IMG/VR virus record: IMGVR_UViG_3300022594_000519
Coordinates: 1-22,558 of that record
Strand: one strand, 5' to 3'
Length of the DNA stretch: 22,558 nt
Source of the DNA: a virus
The first letter of the stretch is position 1, and every line of letters starts with the position of its first letter. Below the pieces are notes generated by a model that was not told the DNA's origin, ran no database searches, and worked only from the letters and a program-made list of their open reading frames with translations. The translations under genes and the position numbers were made by a program. Of the stretch, positions 8,733 through 22,558 are shown in pieces.

Positions 8733-8750
8733 TAAAGTATTTCTACTTTA
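8733..8750 (-). other. Small hairpin at the phoH stop codon
   Basis: Read on the minus strand, TAAAGTA and TACTTTA form a 7-bp stem with a GAAA tetraloop, starting at the phoH stop codon. It lies just ahead of the main terminator for that strand and may stabilise the phoH mRNA end. Confidence 0.45.
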
Positions 8751-9467
8751 TTCTCCATACACTGCTAACACCTCCTTCACAGCGTTATGGCGTTCGATGT
8801 CCTTGGCTTCAAATTGAATGATGTCAATATGTTCCAAATATTCTTTTTGTTCGAGCAGTTTGCAGAAATCAATCAGACCATTATCGCTCAATCGGTCTGC
8901 TTGTGCCAAATCTCCAGTGACTACCATCTTAGAGCCCTCTCCTAAACGGGTTAGTAGCATTTTCATTTGATTGACAGTTGCATTTTGCATTTCGTCTGCA
9001 ACTATGTATGCGTTTTTAAATGTGCGTCCACGCATATACGCAAGTGGGCTTATCTCAATAACACCTTCCTCTAGCATTTTGGCTATTTCTTTAGTTTGAT
9101 AATATTCTCCGAGTACGTCAAATATAGGACGAGTCCAAGGTGCCATCTTTTCATTTAAGTCACCTGGTAAAAATCCTAAATCTTCGTCTACGGAAACGGC
9201 GGGTCTTGTCACAACGATTTTGTCAACCTTGCCTTCCTGAAACAACTTAACTCCATATTGTACAGCCAACATAGTTTTACCCGTACCGGCTGGGCCGATA
9301 GCAAGTACTATGCTTGTATGTTCTGCGTACAATTTACTGAGATATAGTTTCTGATTAGCATTACGTGCCTGAATTGACACACGTTGCTTTTTCGCCGGAA
9401 GATATGGCTGAAAATCAATTATGTTAACTTCTGATGTAAAACGCTTTTTCACTCGTTGTTTACTCAT
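8748..9467 (-). CDS. phoH: PhoH-like ATPase
   Basis: The 239-residue PhoH-family protein has Walker A G-P-A-G-T-G-K-T at 58-65, V-V-T-R-P-A-V at 85-91, Walker B V-A-D-E-M-Q-N at 156-162, and the conserved T-G-D near 184-186. PhoH proteins are P-loop ATPases related to helicase cores and are widespread in aquatic phages. The host family is often linked to phosphate starvation or RNA metabolism, but the role in phages is unsettled. It is the only minus-strand gene here, with its own structured leader (9497-9540) and its own terminator, so it forms a separate transcription unit. All ATPase motifs are intact. Confidence 0.93.
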   Translation of the reverse strand: MSKQRVKKRFTSEVNIIDFQPYLPAKKQRVSIQARNANQKLYLSKLYAEHTSIVLAIGPAGTGKTMLAVQYGVKLFQEGKVDKIVVTRPAVSVDEDLGFLPGDLNEKMAPWTRPIFDVLGEYYQTKEIAKMLEEGVIEISPLAYMRGRTFKNAYIVADEMQNATVNQMKMLLTRLGEGSKMVVTGDLAQADRLSDNGLIDFCKLLEQKEYLEHIDIIQFEAKDIERHNAVKEVLAVYGE

Positions 9468-13868: not shown

Positions 13869-14729
13869 ATGACTATGACTGATTACTATCAAATATTGGG
13901 TGTTGCTGAAAATGCTAGCCCAGACGAAATTAAAAAAGCCTACAGGAAGTTGGCTAATCAGCATCACCCTGACAAGGGAGGCGATCAAGCCAAGTTTAAA
14001 GATATTTCCGTAGCATACGATATTTTGAGCAATCCTCAGAAAAAAGCCGAGTACGACCAACAACGACAATTTGGAAACGGACAACAATTCCATTTTAATA
14101 CAGGTGCTGGCGGATTCGATCCTTTTTCACAAATGTTTGGCGGTGGACATCCATTCGCAGATATATTTGGACGAGCACACGGACATCAAATGCGCCGTAA
14201 TAGAGATCTTAATATCCAATGTCAAATTACATTGTTAGATAGCTACCAAGGTAAACAATTAGAAGCACAGTATCACTTACCTAGTGGCAAAAGTCAAACA
14301 GTTGTAATTAATGTACCAGCTGGTATCGAACACGGTTCAACTATTCGTTATAGTGGACTAGGTGACGATAGTGTTGCCGGTCTACAACGTGGAGATTTAA
14401 ACGTTACTATTTTAGTAATGCCCGATAAAAAGTTTGAGCGTCGTGGAGATGACTTGTACACGTTTATCGAAGTTAGTCCAATTGAAGCAATGATTGGTTG
14501 TAGAAAATCTATTAAGACTATTACAGGTGCTAGCATGGATTTAGAATTGCGTCCGGGTGTAGATACTGGGACTGAATTTGCTAGTGCTGGCAATGGATTT
14601 CCAAATGTAAACACTGGTCGTAAAGGGCGGTTTGTTAGCGTTGTAAAGATTGTTGTTCCAACAGTTATCGATCCAGTTATAGTGCAAAGGTTACAACAAT
14701 TAAATGCTGAACTTAGTCAAAGATCCTGA
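13869..14729 (+). CDS. dnaJ: DnaJ/CbpA-like J-domain co-chaperone
   Basis: The 286-residue protein has a J domain (about 4-68) with Y-Y-Q-I-L-G-V, the H33-P-D35 loop that stimulates DnaK, and Y-D-I-L-S-N-P. A Gly/Phe-rich linker follows (about 69-105), then C-terminal substrate-binding domains (about 110-275). The four C-x-x-C-x-G-x-G zinc repeats of type I DnaJ are absent, so it is a type II (CbpA-like) protein. No phage DnaK is visible, so it should work with host DnaK. The ATG at 13869 has no Shine-Dalgarno sequence; an ATG at 13875 is an alternative. It overlaps the deformylase gene by 26 bases. Confidence 0.92.
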   Translation: MTMTDYYQILGVAENASPDEIKKAYRKLANQHHPDKGGDQAKFKDISVAYDILSNPQKKAEYDQQRQFGNGQQFHFNTGAGGFDPFSQMFGGGHPFADIFGRAHGHQMRRNRDLNIQCQITLLDSYQGKQLEAQYHLPSGKSQTVVINVPAGIEHGSTIRYSGLGDDSVAGLQRGDLNVTILVMPDKKFERRGDDLYTFIEVSPIEAMIGCRKSIKTITGASMDLELRPGVDTGTEFASAGNGFPNVNTGRKGRFVSVVKIVVPTVIDPVIVQRLQQLNAELSQRS

Positions 14730-15192
14730 TCCAAAATTAAAACAAAAGGCCGCAAACTGGGACTTTGAACAGTTCGTTAATGCGGCTGTTGTCGAACGAG
14801 AAATGTTCGAGTTAATGAATGCTAGCGGAGGTATTGGCCTTGCTGGTAACCAAGTTGGATTATTATACAGAGTATTTGTTATGAAATTATCCGATGGACG
14901 AGAAATCGGTTGTTTCAATCCATGGATAATGATTGGCGATAATGACATGATACAAGCCGAAGAAGGGTGTTTAAGTTTCCCCAATTTATGGCTTAAAGTC
15001 CCTCGTCATAACAAAATTACTGCCGCATATCTTGACAGTGCAGGAAAACAATGTATAATAGAACTTGAAGGCATCGATGCTAGATGTTTCCAACATGAGT
15101 TGGATCATCTAGACGGTATTACATTTACAGAACATGTAAGTGATTTAAAACTTAAAATGGCTCGAAAGAAGCAAAGGAAAATAAATGGTTGA
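14704..15192 (+). CDS. def: Peptide deformylase
   Basis: The 162-residue enzyme has all three deformylase motifs: G43-I-G-L-A-G-N-Q50, E87-G-C-L-S91 with zinc ligand C89, and Q-H131-E-L-D-H135 with zinc ligands H131 and H135 and catalytic E132. It removes the formyl group from N-terminal Met of new proteins. Motif 1 has Gly-Asn where most bacterial enzymes have Ala-x, a minor change. Phage deformylases are known from marine T4-like viruses, often as auxiliary genes. It overlaps dnaJ by 26 bases and clpA by 8, so the three are translated as one protein-maturation unit. Confidence 0.93.
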   Translation: MLNLVKDPDPKLKQKAANWDFEQFVNAAVVEREMFELMNASGGIGLAGNQVGLLYRVFVMKLSDGREIGCFNPWIMIGDNDMIQAEEGCLSFPNLWLKVPRHNKITAAYLDSAGKQCIIELEGIDARCFQHELDHLDGITFTEHVSDLKLKMARKKQRKING

Positions 15193-17461
15193 ACCAAGCG
15201 ATAATCTACAAGTGGTATTTGAAAAAGCAATTGAAACTGCTAAAAAACTCAGCCACGAATATCTAACTATCGAGCACTTGTTGTTTGCTATGCTTTGTGA
15301 AGAAAGTTTTGCAAACACTATTACAGGTTTTGGTAGCGACCCGCTTTTTATTAAAAAGAATTTAGAACATTATCTAAACAATAAATGTGACGAAATTGTT
15401 AGCCCTGGGCCTGTTATTAAACCTAAGAAAACACAAACCGTAGAACGTGTACTTAATAAAGCATTTACACAAGTATTGTTTAACGGACGTCAAAAGATCG
15501 AACCAACAGATGTATTCCTTGCTATGATGGGCGAGAAACGTAGCTGGGCTCATTTCTATATTGCTCAAGCAGAAATCGACAAAGAGAAATTTGCAGATTA
15601 CTTGAACAATAATATGGAAGAAGCTGAGGAAGAAGAAGTTGATATGGGTACTGCACAAGGTAATAAAGCACTCAAGGCATTTACTACCAATCTTAACGAT
15701 GCAGTTAAAAAGAATAAAATCGACCCAGTTATTGGTCGTGTAGACGAGCTAGAGAACGTAGCACTTGCTATGGGTCGTCGTAGTAAAAATAACGTAATCC
15801 TAGTAGGAGATCCTGGTGTAGGCAAGACGGCTATAGCCGAAGGTTTAGCATACAACATAGTTAAGGGCGCAGTTCCGGACTTCCTCAAGGAGTATACAGT
15901 TTATAACCTAGACATTAGTGCCATGTTAGCAGGTAGTAAGTACCGCGGTGACTTTGAAGAACGTTTTAAGATGGTTCTAAAAGGTTTGTCAGGCAAAGGT
16001 AAAACTATCTTGTTTATTGACGAAGCACACATGATTAGCGGTGCTGGTTCAGCAAGTAACTCTGCTAACGATTTGTCAAACATGATGAAGCCAGCACTAA
16101 GCAAAGGTACTATTAAAGTTATTGCTAGTACTACGTGGGAAGAATACCGTAAGCACTTTGAAAAGGATCGTGCGTTGATGCGCCGTTTCCAACGCATTAC
16201 GGTTGACGAGCCAACTACAGAAGTAGCATTACAAATTCTTAAAGGTATTAAGAAGTATTACGAAGAACATCACAAGGTCAAAATCAAAGACGAAGCATTG
16301 TCTGCGGCTATTAAATTGAGTGTTAAGTATCAAGCAGATAAGAAACTACCAGATAAAGCAATTGACTTGATCGACGTTGCTTGTAGTCGTTTTAATTTGA
16401 AAATGCCAGATAGTGAACGTGTTGTTAACGAAGCTAGTATTCAGTTTGAACTTGCTAAGATGGTTAATATGCCTGCTGAACAAGTAGCAGAACAAGAAAG
16501 CGAAAACCTAGTTAACCTACAAAGTCAACTATCCGCAGAAGTATATGGTCAAGATCTTGCACTGACAGAAGTTGTTGACAAGATTATGGTCGCACAAGCT
16601 GGTCTTAAGTCAGAGAACAAGCCAGTTGGTAGCTTTGTATTCATGGGTCCAACAGGAACTGGTAAAACAGAAACTGCTAAGAGTCTTGCTAAACACCTAG
16701 GCACCAAGTTGCTACGTTTTGATATGTCAGAGTATCAAGAAAAGCACAGTATCTCCAAATTGATCGGTAGCCCTCCAGGTTATGTTGGCTTCGAAGAAGA
16801 TGCTGGTCAGTTGATTACACAGATTCAAGAAGCACCTAATGCTGTTCTGTTGTTGGACGAAGTTGAAAAAGCTCATCCAGATGTTATGACTGTATTGTTG
16901 CAACTAATGGACAATGGCTTTATCACAGGATCTAATGGTAAGAAAGCAGACTGCCGTAATATCATTCTTATTCTTACAACCAATGCTGGTGCAAGTTCTG
17001 CTGAAAAGAATCAAATTGGCTTTGGCGCACAAGAAAAAGACTACAGTGATGCAGACTTGAAGAAGTTCCTAACTCCAGAGTTCCGTAACCGTTTGGATGG
17101 TATCATTACCTTTAACAAGTTGGGCAAGGAAACAATGGTTAAGATTGTTAACAAATTTGTTGACCAACTTAAAGAACAAGTTAAGGACAAAGCAGTACGC
17201 ATCAAGATTGATAAAGAAGCCATTAACTGGCTCATCGACAAAGGCTTTGATAGCAAGATGGGTGCTCGTCCTTTACAACGTGTTATTGACAAGGAAATCA
17301 AACGTGACCTTGCTAAACTCATGTTGTTTGGTGATTTGAAATCAGGCGGCTGGGTAACTATCACTGTTGATGATGATAAGATTGCTCTAGCAGTTAAGCC
17401 TAAAACTCCTAAGTTACCATTTGTAGCTGTTGAAATAGAAAATGATCTACAAGGAAACTAA
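15185..17461 (+). CDS. clpA: ClpA-like AAA+ unfoldase, full length
   Basis: The 758-residue protein matches the domain order and length of bacterial ClpA. It has an N-domain (1-140), an acidic linker (144-153), D1 and D2. D1 has Walker A G208-D-P-G-V-G-K-T215, pore loop K-Y-R-G (252-255) and Walker B L-F-I-D-E (276-280). D2 has Walker A G488-P-T-G-T-G-K-T495, Walker B L-L-L-D-E (555-559), pore loop G-Y-V-G (532-535) and sensor-2 G-A-R-P (693-696). An I-G-F tripeptide (611-613) sits at the ClpP-docking loop. ClpB's long middle coiled coil is absent. No phage clpP is visible, so it should feed substrates into host ClpP. Codons match the neighbouring phage genes. Confidence 0.93.
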   Translation: MVEPSDNLQVVFEKAIETAKKLSHEYLTIEHLLFAMLCEESFANTITGFGSDPLFIKKNLEHYLNNKCDEIVSPGPVIKPKKTQTVERVLNKAFTQVLFNGRQKIEPTDVFLAMMGEKRSWAHFYIAQAEIDKEKFADYLNNNMEEAEEEEVDMGTAQGNKALKAFTTNLNDAVKKNKIDPVIGRVDELENVALAMGRRSKNNVILVGDPGVGKTAIAEGLAYNIVKGAVPDFLKEYTVYNLDISAMLAGSKYRGDFEERFKMVLKGLSGKGKTILFIDEAHMISGAGSASNSANDLSNMMKPALSKGTIKVIASTTWEEYRKHFEKDRALMRRFQRITVDEPTTEVALQILKGIKKYYEEHHKVKIKDEALSAAIKLSVKYQADKKLPDKAIDLIDVACSRFNLKMPDSERVVNEASIQFELAKMVNMPAEQVAEQESENLVNLQSQLSAEVYGQDLALTEVVDKIMVAQAGLKSENKPVGSFVFMGPTGTGKTETAKSLAKHLGTKLLRFDMSEYQEKHSISKLIGSPPGYVGFEEDAGQLITQIQEAPNAVLLLDEVEKAHPDVMTVLLQLMDNGFITGSNGKKADCRNIILILTTNAGASSAEKNQIGFGAQEKDYSDADLKKFLTPEFRNRLDGIITFNKLGKETMVKIVNKFVDQLKEQVKDKAVRIKIDKEAINWLIDKGFDSKMGARPLQRVIDKEIKRDLAKLMLFGDLKSGGWVTITVDDDKIALAVKPKTPKLPFVAVEIENDLQGN

Positions 17462-18140: not shown

Positions 18141-18515
18141 ATGCGAATTAATGAACTTTGCGAAAGCGTAGGCGCTGAATTAGATAAAGATATTGAACAT
18201 CAGGATAGACACGGTTTAGGGTTTAACCTTGCCGACGACTTGTTGTTTTTTATGCATCACGATGATGATGCATATCGTCGTCATACATATCCAGCTATTA
18301 TGAAAGCATACGATTCTCATAAAGCTGAAAAACCTACAGATATGGCATTGTTTAGTGCGGCAGTTCACGAAGCATACGAAAAATATCGTACTAAATTCCA
18401 AGACATTCGTGAGCTTCCAGAAAGTTTAGATGACGACACAGTTCGTGAAATTTGTGAACACATGCACGAACACGAAACTCAAAAAATCCAAGACGGTCAT
18501 TACGGGGAATACTAG
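18141..18515 (+). CDS. Phage protein with His/Asp-rich segment, unknown
   Basis: The 124-residue acidic, helical protein has M-H-H-D-D-D-A-Y-R-R-H and E-H-M-H-E-H-E, two His/acidic clusters that could bind metal. The N-terminus M-R-I-N-E-L-C-E-S weakly resembles the capsid-targeting starts of later genes in this module. Its TAG stop shares a base with the following GTG start. I recall similar proteins in marine T4-like phages, with no known function. Confidence 0.7.
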   Translation: MRINELCESVGAELDKDIEHQDRHGLGFNLADDLLFFMHHDDDAYRRHTYPAIMKAYDSHKAEKPTDMALFSAAVHEAYEKYRTKFQDIRELPESLDDDTVREICEHMHEHETQKIQDGHYGEY

Positions 18516-19750
18516 TGTTACTCCGTGAATTGTTTCTTAAAGAAAATGCGACTGGTCCACATCCTACTACAGGTGTTAATCTAGGCCGAGCGTTTAATCA
18601 CCCAGAACATTTTATTATATTCTACGGTCTGACTGGTATCAACGAAGCAATTCAACATTTAATAGATATAGTTGCAGAACCTAAACAATTAAGATTTAAA
18701 TGGGACGGTAATCCTCAGATCTATTGGGGGCGCGAAAAGAAGAACGGACCATTAGTACTAGCAGGACATAATGGATGGAGTAAAGGTGGCAGAGATACTG
18801 GCACTACAATAGACGATTTTACAAGTCCTAAAGCAATTGAAAACTTTATTGTTAATAAAAGTGGTAATCCAAAGACTCCCGAAGAAGTTGCAGAACGACA
18901 AAGATTTGCTAGCGAGTTTAGCGGATTGTATCATATATTTGATGCGGCTACACCAAAAGACTTTGTAGGGTTTGTTTATGCTGATGCATTATTCTTGCCT
19001 AACACTAAGCCAGCACCGGTCGACGGTGTGTATACTATGAGACCAAATCCGCATAGTAAAACAGAATATCATATAGACTCCAATGTTAAAAAAGAAGGTC
19101 CGTTAAAATTAGCATCACGTGTGCCGGGTGCTCAAGCTATGATAGTAGCACATGGAACATTTAAAACATTTGGTGCTCCAGATAATGAACAGATTCCAGA
19201 AGATGACTTTAGCAAATTTAATAAGACTCCTGGGTTGATTGTTGTAAGTCCAATTTACAATGATACAAAACCTCAAGTCGACATGTCTGAAATTGAAGAA
19301 GTAAAAAAGGTTGGTGGATATATTGACCAACATGGACAAAATATACAAAACTTTGTAACACATATACCGCCTGCGGACAGACAAGGATTCTTTTATAGAT
19401 TTTTGAATATACATAATTCAGCTAACGATTTTGATAGTATTACTCCGCAAATGTTCTACGACTGGATGGCTAGCCCTAAAGATCCTAAAAATCTAGATAG
19501 CCCATCTATGGTAAGTTCTAACAAACAACTACATATTAAAAATACAGATTTAAAATTTAATGCGTTAGCACCAATGTTTCACTTGATGAAAATTATGCGA
19601 CGCACACGTCATGCTATTAACGATAGCATTAATAGTACACATAAACCAGAGTGTTGGGCAAGTAATCCAGAAGGATTTGTACGTTACGCAGGTCAAGGAC
19701 ATCAACACGGTCATATAAAACTTCAGAATGCAGGATGGAAAGATGAGTAA
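18515..19750 (+). CDS. KWDG nucleotidyltransferase/ligase-like phage protein
   Basis: The 411-residue protein starts with GTG (GGGG 8-11 bases upstream). L-R-F-K62-W-D-G65-N-P-Q-I-Y-W-G fits the K-x-D-G motif I of nucleic-acid ligases and capping enzymes, in which Lys carries the nucleotide. G-F-V-Y-A-D-A-L-F (152-160) may be motif III. R-P-N-P-H-S-K-T-E-Y-H-I followed by an A-x-A-M-I-V-A-H-G-T segment matches my recollection of a large uncharacterised family in cyanophages. The first ten residues, M-L-L-R-E-L-F-L-K-E, resemble a T4 capsid-targeting peptide with an L-x-E cleavage site. Its stop overlaps the nucleotidyltransferase start. Ligase activity is unproven, and later ligase motifs are not convincing. 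Confidence 0.6.
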   Translation: MLLRELFLKENATGPHPTTGVNLGRAFNHPEHFIIFYGLTGINEAIQHLIDIVAEPKQLRFKWDGNPQIYWGREKKNGPLVLAGHNGWSKGGRDTGTTIDDFTSPKAIENFIVNKSGNPKTPEEVAERQRFASEFSGLYHIFDAATPKDFVGFVYADALFLPNTKPAPVDGVYTMRPNPHSKTEYHIDSNVKKEGPLKLASRVPGAQAMIVAHGTFKTFGAPDNEQIPEDDFSKFNKTPGLIVVSPIYNDTKPQVDMSEIEEVKKVGGYIDQHGQNIQNFVTHIPPADRQGFFYRFLNIHNSANDFDSITPQMFYDWMASPKDPKNLDSPSMVSSNKQLHIKNTDLKFNALAPMFHLMKIMRRTRHAINDSINSTHKPECWASNPEGFVRYAGQGHQHGHIKLQNAGWKDE

Positions 19751-21314
19751 TAGCAAACACGTTACTTTTTGCTTTGGTAGATTAAACCCTCCACACTACG
19801 GACACAGTGGATTAATTCAAGCTGTGAAAACTGACGCACAAAAACACGGCGGTGATTGGTTTATCTTTACAAGTAAGAGTCACGATAAGAAACCTGATCC
19901 AAAAAATAAGAATCCAATAGCGTACTCAGAAAAAATACAATGGATCGATTTAATCAATCCCGGACTAGGTAAACATTTTGTTAGAGATTCTAGTATTGCT
20001 AAAACATTCTTAGAAGCCGCGGCTTATTTGTATAGTTTAGGTTACACTAGTGCGACCTTTGTAGCAGGAGATGAAGATATGCCTGCTATGAAACCTGCGT
20101 TGGAACAATATAATCATCAACAAAGAGATGCTAAAGGTAATCCGCACAGACACGGATTTTATGCGTTTCATCCGTTTTTATTCCATGCAAACCCAAGAGT
20201 AACAAGTGCTACTAGTGCTAGAGCGGCCGCGATTGCAAACGATCCAGATGCATTTTTCTCAGCAACAAAAGTTCCAAAAGATTGGACTGTAAATGGCAGA
20301 ACGTTATTAGAAGCGACTCGCGCAGGACTTGTACCCGAGTTAGCAGAACCAGATGAGTCTATACCTGTACAGAAGAAGCCTGTGAAACAGTTAAATACAG
20401 TAGTACCCAAGGAAAAAGTTATGAAGAAAGGACCAGCACAAGAATTAGCTGAATCGATGCATAAGCATGGCATGGATGCATACGAACGCGACCATCGTGC
20501 CGCAACTAGTAACATGGGCGTGGATCATAATTTCCGTAACCAGGAACGTAACGCTGGATTAGAACACGAAAGAAACAATATTGCTATTTCTATTAACGGA
20601 AAAAAATGGAAAGTATTTCCAGGCAAAGGTCATGCTGACAGTCACGAAGAGTGGAAACATTTACAACACATGAAAGACTGGTGTGCTAAAAAGTCTGCGT
20701 CGACTGGTAAAAAATGGTCTGCACACTTAACTGGCGAGAATCCTACTGTGTCCGAAGGCAAAACACAAAAACAAGAAGCACCTAAGCCACGTAACTTTGT
20801 TGCTAAGAACGCAATTCAAAGCGGTGCTGGCGCACATAAAGATAAAAAGAAAGCTATGAAGCAAGGCGATACAAAACACAAAGGCAAATTAGAATTTGCC
20901 GAAGGTCGTTTGAGTGCTAGCCTAAATAGTATTTTTGAAGAAAGATTCGAAGTATTGTATGAAGCTGAAAAGATTCCAGACAGTCATGCTACTGCTACAC
21001 CCGGAATGACTACTCATCCAAGTTTAGATAACAGCAGTCCGTATCACCCATGGCGTTTTGCGGCCAACTTCTTACCTGGTGCTAACGGTAAAGATCCTTA
21101 TGAACATCAACCGGAACGTGATGGCCCAAACGGACAGCACTTGGTCACTGTAGCATATACTTCTGAAGAAGATACCATGATTAAACAAGCAGAAAAAGCA
21201 TTCGGTGCTGAAGCAAGACGAATTGCAATTTCTCCACCAGGAAGCACTGAACTACCCGATACATACAAAACTAGTCCAGTAGCAACTCCTAAACGTAACA
21301 AGTACGGTGTATAA
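19743..21314 (+). CDS. HxGH nucleotidyltransferase fused to extra modules
   Basis: I start at the ATG at 19743, which overlaps the preceding stop codon and gives M-S-N-S-K-H; the ATG at 19728 would extend further into the previous gene. Of 523 residues, 1-200 are a cytidylyltransferase-like domain: F-G-R-L-N-P-P-H18-Y-G-H21, and S-A-T-S-A-R (155-160) as the second nucleotide-binding motif. Residues 238-340 form a basic His-rich module, and 350-385 a Lys-rich segment (K-D-K-K-K, K-H-K-G-K). Residues 408-523 are a domain duplicated in the gene at 21628. L-A-E-S (235-238) and L-Y-E-A (405-408) at the module borders fit T4 prohead protease sites. The substrate is unknown; NMN or another nucleotide is possible. 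Confidence 0.75.
   Translation: MSNSKHVTFCFGRLNPPHYGHSGLIQAVKTDAQKHGGDWFIFTSKSHDKKPDPKNKNPIAYSEKIQWIDLINPGLGKHFVRDSSIAKTFLEAAAYLYSLGYTSATFVAGDEDMPAMKPALEQYNHQQRDAKGNPHRHGFYAFHPFLFHANPRVTSATSARAAAIANDPDAFFSATKVPKDWTVNGRTLLEATRAGLVPELAEPDESIPVQKKPVKQLNTVVPKEKVMKKGPAQELAESMHKHGMDAYERDHRAATSNMGVDHNFRNQERNAGLEHERNNIAISINGKKWKVFPGKGHADSHEEWKHLQHMKDWCAKKSASTGKKWSAHLTGENPTVSEGKTQKQEAPKPRNFVAKNAIQSGAGAHKDKKKAMKQGDTKHKGKLEFAEGRLSASLNSIFEERFEVLYEAEKIPDSHATATPGMTTHPSLDNSSPYHPWRFAANFLPGANGKDPYEHQPERDGPNGQHLVTVAYTSEEDTMIKQAEKAFGAEARRIAISPPGSTELPDTYKTSPVATPKRNKYGV
20964..21311 (+). repeat. C-terminal domain, copy 1 of a duplicated protein domain
   Basis: It encodes residues 408-523 of the nucleotidyltransferase fusion. 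It shares P-G-[ML]-T-T-x-P, a beta-alpha segment around T-x-x-x-Y-T-x-x-x-E-x-x-M, and the 13-residue end T-S-P-V-A-T-P-K-R-N-K-Y-G with the protein encoded at 21628-22068. Confidence 0.75.
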
Positions 21315-21631
21315 TGCGACAATATAGAGTTACTAGTCAAGATATAAATCAAGACAGTCCAGATGACTGTTTTCTCGATCCTAGTGACCCTATACACGAA
21401 ATGAAAGCTATAGCACACTTAGGCGGACTGGGTGCAGATGCAAGACTACACAAATTACGTGTAGAACAAGGATCTAACATAAGTGTTACTGGAACTGAAA
21501 AAGGTCGTATACAACGAGAAATGAATATCAAACCTGGAACGGACGAATGGTTTAAATTATGGTTTAGTTTACCTAAATTTATGGAAGGCGAACGAGCTGT
21601 TGGCACAGGATTTAGAGGCGTAAGAAAATGA
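21314..21631 (+). CDS. Conserved phage protein, unknown
   Basis: The 105-residue protein contains L-D-P-S-D-P-I-H-E-M-K-A-I-A-H-L-G-G, N-I-S-V-T-G-T-E-K-G and a C-terminal P-G-T-D-E-W-F-K-L-W-F-S-L-P segment. I recall this combination from a small family found in T4-like marine phages next to similar nucleotidyltransferase genes. There is no signal peptide or catalytic motif. It is linked by TAATG to the previous gene and by ATGA to the next. It lies between the two copies of the duplicated domain. Confidence 0.72.
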   Translation: MRQYRVTSQDINQDSPDDCFLDPSDPIHEMKAIAHLGGLGADARLHKLRVEQGSNISVTGTEKGRIQREMNIKPGTDEWFKLWFSLPKFMEGERAVGTGFRGVRK

Positions 21632-22068
21632 GATTAAGGGAATTTTTTAATAAATTAAACGAAGGGTCGGATGGCATTAGTACTAGCGATTCGGACGTCG
21701 ACGGTTCTGGAACTGCACAGGGCGGTAAAAAACGCTCTAAAGGTCGCGGTAAAATACACGACCATCACCAAGCCGCAATTCCTGGATTAACTACTATTCC
21801 CGATTGGCCCGGTATGTACTATAACATGTATCGTTTAGGTGTGCATCTAGCTGGTAGTCCTGAAAATCCTAATGATAATGCTGGTCCTTTTAGAAACGAG
21901 ATGACGTTTACTACATATACTGATATTGAAGAAGAAATGGTAAAACATAGCGCCAAAGAAATGGGTGTAAAATTAAATGTATTAAGCAGTAAGGACAGTA
22001 TTGAAACAGCTGATACTAACACTACTAGCCCTGTAGCAACACCTAAGCGCAATAAGTACGGAATTTAA
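21628..22068 (+). CDS. Small paralogue of the nucleotidyltransferase C-terminal domain
   Basis: The 146-residue protein has three parts. The N-terminal M-R-L-R-E-F-F-N-K-L-N-E-G resembles a capsid-targeting peptide with an L-N-E site at residues 10-12. A Ser/Asp/Gly-rich then Lys/Arg-rich linker follows (13-44, G-K-K-R-S-K-G-R-G-K). A domain (52-146) is homologous to residues 408-523 of the nucleotidyltransferase fusion and ends in the same T-S-P-V-A-T-P-K-R-N-K-Y-G plus one residue. If the leader is cleaved at assembly, a basic protein of about 134 residues would remain in the head. The function is unknown. Confidence 0.72.
   Translation: MRLREFFNKLNEGSDGISTSDSDVDGSGTAQGGKKRSKGRGKIHDHHQAAIPGLTTIPDWPGMYYNMYRLGVHLAGSPENPNDNAGPFRNEMTFTTYTDIEEEMVKHSAKEMGVKLNVLSSKDSIETADTNTTSPVATPKRNKYGI
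21781..22065 (+). repeat. Copy 2 of the duplicated protein domain
   Basis: It encodes residues 52-146 of the small paralogue. The shared 13-residue end is identical to copy 1, yet 7 of its 13 codons differ, all at synonymous positions, so this is an old duplication and not a recent DNA repeat. Confidence 0.75.
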
Positions 22069-22069
22069 T

Positions 22070-22279
22070 ATGAGAGCTAAAGAGTTTTTATTGGAGTTTC
22101 CAACCGCAGGAACAACTAATAGCAGTTCTTTTGCAAGTATTCCTAACCCGCATATTGCAAATAGCAAGCCTTATAAGAAAAAACCAGGTAAAATTAAGAG
22201 CGTTAATGCTTTAGATTCAAACGTAAGTCTGTTTGGAGCCGTTGGAGAAAACCAGGCTACAGCAGTGATTAAGAGATAA
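22070..22279 (+). CDS. Small phage protein with capsid-targeting-like N-terminus
   Basis: The 69-residue protein starts M-R-A-K-E-F-L-L-E-F, with L-L-E at residues 7-9 as a possible prohead protease site. It continues with Ser/Asn-rich sequence and a basic K-K-K-P-G-K-I-K patch (about 37-44). It follows the previous stop codon by 1 base. Size, basic character and leader resemble T4 internal head proteins, but no direct homology is recognised. Confidence 0.6.
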   Translation: MRAKEFLLEFPTAGTTNSSSFASIPNPHIANSKPYKKKPGKIKSVNALDSNVSLFGAVGENQATAVIKR

Positions 22280-22282
22280 ATA
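22275..22282 (+). promoter_or_regulatory. Late-type promoter motif GATAAATA
   Basis: A 7/8 match to the T4 late element, overlapping the end of the small gene and lying 21 bases before the ATG at 22304. A CGGAG ribosome site at 22292-22296 follows. It is the best-placed of the late-type motifs in this window. Confidence 0.55.
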
Positions 22283-22303
22283 TTAGAACAACGGAGTCCA
22301 CTC

Positions 22304-22558
22304 ATGGCCAAACAAGATCTTTATAAAACCGCACAACAAAGTGCAAAACTATTCAAGCTAATCAGCGAGAATGAAGAATTAGAGGGTTGGGTATCTAAAA
22401 AGATTACCAAAGCCGCCGCTGATATCGAAAGCGTATATCAGTACTTAAACTATGAAAAGCATTTCAAAGAACAAGAACGTGCTATCAATGCTAACGAAAG
22501 TCTTAGCGAAAGTGCTAAAGAAGAATTACGTGCTAAACTAGCAGAAGCCAAAGACAAA
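22304..22558 (+). CDS. Phage protein, 5' part only, unknown
   Basis: The reading frame is open to the window end (85 codons). It has a CGGAG site and a late-type promoter motif upstream. The N-terminal part A-K-L-F-K-L-I-S-E-N-E-E-L-E-G-W-V followed by K-K-I-T-K-A-A-D-I-E-S-V-Y-Q-Y-L resembles a helical segment I recall in several virion-associated proteins of cyanophages and related phages. The rest is a charged helix rich in Glu, Lys and Ala. It may be a head-core or internal protein; the C-terminus is not seen. Confidence 0.65.
   Translation, partial: MAKQDLYKTAQQSAKLFKLISENEELEGWVSKKITKAAADIESVYQYLNYEKHFKEQERAINANESLSESAKEELRAKLAEAKDK

Follow-up and report, generated by a model that had tools for sequence, protein, structure and literature searches.

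The virus fragment IMGVR_UViG_3300022594_000519, a stretch of 22,558 bases analysed here over its full length (the window; 31 genes were scored), ends with a run of seven open reading frames (ORFs) at 18141-22558, all on the plus strand. Four of the seven, coding for proteins of 124, 411, 146 and 69 amino acids, begin with the common leader M-[RKL]-x-x-E-[LF]-[LF]-x-x-E, and this raises the question of why neighbouring proteins should share an N-terminus. We consider it very likely that capsid targeting of the type known from phage T4, together with trimming by a gp21-type prohead protease, explains it. As far as can be judged from sequence, the virus, an uncultured relative of giant phages, probably packs all four proteins, among them the ligase-like one, into its particle.

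A common leader in front of unrelated proteins

An earlier note on this DNA had quoted the similar starts, and they are indeed ORF starts (18141, 18515 with a GTG codon, 21628 and 22070). Gene starts in uncultured contigs were assigned by our own scoring of ribosome-binding sites, not taken from annotation. The 411-residue protein (18515-19750), which a family search assigns to DUF6267, starts with MLLRELFLKE (18515-18544), where L3, R4, E5, L6 and F7 are invariant and E10 occurs in 33 of 36 distinct leaders. There are 169 relatives of this protein in viral contigs, and nearly all keep the first seven residues as M-x-L-R-E-L-F. In the 124-residue protein (18141-18515) the leader MRINELCE (18141-18164) precedes a small acidic body without family match. 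The earlier note had called this start weak, which is not borne out, the pattern M[RK][IM]xxLxE being kept in 35 of 38 relatives. The 146-residue protein (21628-22068) consists of the leader MRLREFFNKLNE (21628-21663), a linker, and a C-terminal domain ending in SPVATPKRNKYGI; its relatives start with MRLREFF[TV]KLNE or MRAKEF[LIV]xE. The 69-residue protein (22070-22279) has the leader MRAKEFLLE (22070-22096).

With a position-specific scoring matrix (PSSM) for the leader, the four proteins score 11.6-15.6 (the 146-residue protein 15.6), whereas none of the other 27 genes of the window exceeds -1.1; as this same module had been used to train the PSSM, the contrast is in part circular. A looser T4-style regular expression matches 3 of the 31 window genes, compared with 0.22 in shuffles (p=0.003).

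Across related phages, both the leader and its glutamate are conserved. Among 201 distinct leaders, 168 have Glu at residue 8-10 (48 in shuffles), and where Glu is found at residues 9-12, position P3 is L or I in 76% (13% in shuffles). The (L/I)-x-E rule of the earlier note thus holds for most leaders, while its strict form is relaxed to F or Y in some, notably in the 411-residue family. The features of a capsid-targeting sequence (CTS) are present, namely a short N-terminal leader, hydrophobic residues at about positions 7-8, and a terminal Glu after (L/I)-x.

The noted likeness to T4 capsid-targeting and propeptide sequences is upheld for the length, the pattern of hydrophobic residues and the Glu at the end. 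The CTSs of T4 internal proteins (IP) I-III and of Alt (Mullaney and Black 1996, reviewed in PMC9026906) likewise comprise about 10 N-terminal residues, are hydrophobic at positions 7-8, end in Glu and tag several unrelated proteins, and the lineage of the window shares with T4 the T4-type head and the S77 protease. There are also differences. The lineage consensus is [RKL]xxE[LF][LF], whereas T4 has MKTYQEFIAE; in many leaders the Glu comes one or two residues earlier; F and Y are allowed at P3; the tagged genes form a cluster that includes a ligase-like protein; and packaging and cleavage are here predicted from sequence. The T4 gp24 propeptide, MAKINELLRE, is very similar in sequence, and gp24 is cleaved by gp21 according to the T4 record; however, gp24 is a shell protein, while the window proteins are not homologues of capsid proteins, with the exception of a short arm mimic. 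When applied to T4 itself, the T4-style regular expression finds ipII, ipIII, alt, gp21, gp22 and gp24 among its 11 matches (2.9 expected). In contrast, the lineage PSSM scores 1 of 260 T4 proteins at 5 or more, and that one is not a known CTS. In T4 the leaders are shifted by one residue, so the PSSM misses them and the looser pattern is needed.

The bodies behind the leader are unrelated to each other (DUF6267, nucleotidyltransferase, capsid-arm mimic, M23 and GH19 proteins), and in related contigs the same start is found on neighbouring genes with unrelated bodies. For the orthologue of the cytidyltransferase-like protein of the module, the leader is present in 18 relatives and absent in 16, the window's own species being among the latter. 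In the sequences compared, the leader is attached modularly to proteins. There is a further leader family, with MKVxEIISE and similar starts on proteins of 143-502 amino acids, whose genes precede the portal gene by a few kb in many contigs (e.g. L113, 3201-4709, and L123, 4076-4960).

Capsid cleavage site, prohead protease and head genes

The family of the 69-residue protein connects the leader to a cleavage site. In 19 capsid proteins, L-x-E followed by S[AP][TS]AG[ASGT]TSxGN[VI]xTLN is invariant, with rare exceptions. Directly behind their leader, members of the 69-residue family carry a copy of this cleavage site and of the mature capsid N-terminus, with up to 13 of 16 residues identical. 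In the window member, LLE is followed by FPTAGTTNSSSFASI, comparable with L-x-E / SATAGATSAGNVATL at the capsid-protein site. It matches the capsid sequence at 8 of 16 positions, while the maximum among 2040 proteins without leader is 5 of 16. We regard this mimicry of the capsid site as the best sequence evidence that the Glu of the leader is a protease site.

T4 gp61.1 (AF158101, 18966-19130) is arranged in the same way. Its CTS-like start MKTFKEFIKE is followed by DMVAGDSGGNPENISIGTTSGAV, and from the cleavage point onwards 14 of 30 residues are identical to mature gp23, the next best of 2994 windows having 8. While gp61.1 copies gp23, the 69-residue family copies its own capsid protein, so that the two are likened by arrangement and not by direct sequence relationship. 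In the open literature we found no paper describing gp61.1, which is annotated as hypothetical only.

Three long related contigs were read. In one of them, G012, a T4-type portal gene adjoins a gene for a 79-residue protein that starts with MILRELFYID. Among relatives of this portal the order of the head operon is portal, this 79-residue protein (MILRELFY), acidic core, S77 protease, scaffold and gp23. The search for a gp21 homologue suggested in the earlier note succeeded in relatives: L108 encodes a gp21-type S77 protease (PF03420, E=7e-24), and matches to gp20 and gp23 occur in close relatives. Judged by the protease, the nearest annotated relatives are jumbo phages, namely Phosso, PA5oct, SCTP-2, Atu_ph07 and CBB. 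The 356 kb contig G021 carries the T4-type head operon with its S77 protease and also the DUF6267 module. The leader occurs on 14 of its 432 called genes, compared with 0.7 (maximum 4) after shuffling. A cognate S77 protease and T4-type core and head genes are thus found in the same genome in close relatives, including G021. The link between module and protease is based on this contig, to which G012 adds the portal and core.

G021 also has a second cluster of leader genes at 308-335 kb (L218, L219), coding for an M23 peptidase, a GH19 protein, a polynucleotide-kinase-like phosphatase and DUF6321 proteins. A protein with a weak match to Peptidase_M91 is encoded in this cluster, too.

In IPIII of T4, targeting involves residues 4 and 7 and processing involves residues 8 and 10; with Asp at position 10 the protein is still targeted but no longer processed (PMC9026906). 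For the portal-adjacent leader protein, all 51 sequences have F7 and 50 of the 51 have D or N at position 10, which fits a protein that is targeted and left uncut. It is also possible that L-R-E at residue 5 represents its cleavage site. Cleavage of T4 Alt takes place after ITE-6 (PMC5694885), the equivalent of this earlier site, so DUF6267 proteins may likewise be cut early, at LRE-5.

Alternatives and points that weigh against packaging

Several observations weigh against targeting to the head with subsequent cleavage. The window contig, a fragment, does not include the protease gene. Searches of the window and of 20 DUF6267 contigs with PF03420, phrog_207 and phrog_138 were empty because those contigs end before the protease; phrog_207 found T4, which served as positive control. 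In the DUF6267 family, position 8 is L or I in 19 of 36 distinct leaders, Y, F or V in 14 and another residue in 3, and P3 is F or Y in about a third of the leaders. DUF6267 proteins of cyanophages have no leader, so that this enzyme did not ancestrally require packaging. Some leader proteins of G021 are cell-wall hydrolases, which could also be located in the tail.

Direct virion data are confined to the distant relative PA5oct, outside the close lineage of the window; of the 445 proteins in its record, 93 are marked as detected by mass spectrometry (MS). The PA5oct counterpart of the portal-adjacent leader protein, with the start MKINDIITE, is annotated as found in virions by ESI-MS/MS. The association of leader score with detection is weak (3 of 5 proteins with a PSSM score of at least 5 were detected, p=0.064), and genome-wide the scores show no overall shift between detected and other proteins (Mann-Whitney p=0.85). 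A regular expression with L/I-x-E gave 5 of 7 detected (p=0.005), but it was devised after the list of detected proteins had been seen. We consider these data weakly supportive of capsid targeting and not decisive.

Among the alternatives, one is that the leader directs proteins to the portal, neck or tail of the virion and not into the head cavity, and that they stay uncleaved there, the Glu being incidental. The 79-residue protein next to the portal, which has the same leader without the distal E, would fit this, as would the M23 and GH19 wall hydrolases among the leader proteins of G021, since wall hydrolases are tail-borne in many phages. We nevertheless consider it unlikely: there is strong conservation of the distal Glu together with L or I at P3, one family has this Glu in the cleavage context of the capsid protein, and T4 leaders of the same form target the core.

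It is very unlikely that the common start merely reflects recent paralogy or a translation signal in the mRNA. Paralogy does exist between some proteins of the module, in the C-terminal domain, and the GTG start of the 411-residue gene is kept in 45 of 48 relatives. However, paralogy does not account for leaders on unrelated bodies, and all 48 relatives have the same residues L3-R4-E5-L6-F7, encoded by freely varying codons (5 for Arg, 6 for Leu). Because the amino acids are fixed and synonymous codons vary, selection on the leader acts on the peptide; on account of this variation the RNA-signal explanation is rejected.

Equally improbable is that the leader is a tag, as a degron or for chaperone delivery, recognised by the ClpA-like unfoldase that the phage itself encodes. 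The gene of this unfoldase does lie closely upstream of the module in the window and in the relatives viewed, and PA5oct encodes ClpA and ClpS. However, such a tag leaves the L/I-x-E spacing, the capsid-site mimicry and the portal-adjacent copy unexplained, and G021 has leader genes far from clpA.

The proteins of the module and their putative route

We return to T4-type targeting and trimming, which would proceed as follows. The prohead core would assemble on the portal, and the leader would bind to this core as an amphipathic helix some 10 residues long and draw each protein into the forming head. The S77 prohead protease would then cut after the Glu at the leader end, in (L/I/F/Y)-x-E at residues 8-12 and possibly also in L-R-E at residue 5, leaving the mature protein free in the head alongside the DNA. 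While we infer these steps from the leader and the head genes, we assume by analogy with T4 Alt and the IPs that the mature proteins probably exit with the DNA at infection, and an effector role of the module proteins would likewise follow from this analogy only. The cargo would comprise the ligase-like DUF6267 protein, the capsid-arm mimic, the protein with the C-terminal domain and the small acidic protein.

For the DUF6267 protein, the earlier note had suggested a ligase-like enzyme, which agrees with the conserved motifs and lacks a significant structural match. K62, W63, D64 and G65 as well as E386, G387 and V389 are invariant in 22 aligned sequences, corresponding to KxDG (motif I) and EGxV (motif IV). 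In the AlphaFold model (mean pLDDT 87) the leader is a low-confidence helix outside the ordered body. A fold search of the model against PDB gave no match at E<=0.001; ligases and capping enzymes recur weakly (T4 RNA ligase 1, DNA ligase IV; prob ~0.12, TM ~0.2). A PDB sequence search gave no meaningful match and no ligase. From its motifs, the protein is a plausible candidate for a ligase-like covalent nucleotidyltransferase. The conserved GTG start of its gene often overlaps or lies near the stop of the upstream gene, and may indicate translational coupling.

When the 411- and 146-residue proteins were compared with annotated phages by tblastn, no match was obtained, while the diverged DUF6267 member L057 matched cyanophages. 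The DUF6267 profile had no match in T4, PA5oct, Phosso, SCTP-2, Atu_ph07, CBB, Vibrio 2.275, XaC1 and Munch, and we found no paper in the open literature that names DUF6267. In cyanophages (S-RSM4, S-H9-1, P-RSM6; L199, L200, L201) the DUF6267 gene adjoins a cytidyltransferase gene, so that the window's same two families are adjacent there; these leaderless DUF6267 proteins were matched at ~20-29% identity. A search of viral structures found the DUF6267 fold inside the S-PM2 protein A0A0M6VVW4, named cytidyltransferase-like, an apparent fusion. From this neighbourhood and fusion, the two enzymes probably act together. The P-RSM6 cytidyltransferase starts with MITFHVFITEA, resembling T4 MKTYQEFIAEA.

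In the window, the cytidyltransferase-like protein (19728-21314, start probably at 19743) has no leader, contains a DUF7230-like segment and shares its C-terminal domain with the 146-residue protein. The C-termini of the two (21270-21314 and 22025-22068) are nearly identical, SPVATPKRNKYG[VI], and 68 distinct C-termini of this type occur in relatives on proteins of 115-616 amino acids. They possibly represent a second sorting or binding signal. The AlphaFold model of the 146-residue family is of low confidence (pLDDT 55) and was left uninterpreted. Between these two genes, a 105-residue protein (21314-21631) has neither leader nor family match. The next gene of the module (22304-22558), coding for a leaderless DLYK...EGWV protein, is cut by the window end and has 368 residues in L001. 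Upstream of the module, genes for a DnaJ-like protein, a peptide-deformylase-like protein (both assigned by sequence motif) and the ClpA-like ATPase are found at 13869-17461. A PhoH-like ATPase gene (8748-9467, minus strand) opposes almost all other window genes; in G017 and G019, too, it runs against its neighbours.

We tentatively propose, with clearly more doubt than attaches to targeting itself, that the leader can be read as a packaging code for head cargo delivered at infection (the ligase-like and nucleotidyltransferase set, M23 and GH19 proteins, the polynucleotide-kinase-like phosphatase and basic proteins) and, jointly with this, that T4-type heads commonly carry a tiny leader-tagged capsid-arm mimic (gp61.1, the 69-residue family), perhaps as a regulator of the protease or of shell assembly. 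If this is true, internal virion cargo would be predictable from sequence in uncultured giant T4-like phages, and the prediction would flag which uncharacterised proteins act first in the host. T4 gp61.1 would gain a testable role as a copy of the gp23 arm that is packaged and cut by gp21, and the DUF6267 and cytidyltransferase-like enzymes would be candidates for early nucleic-acid repair or counter-defence.

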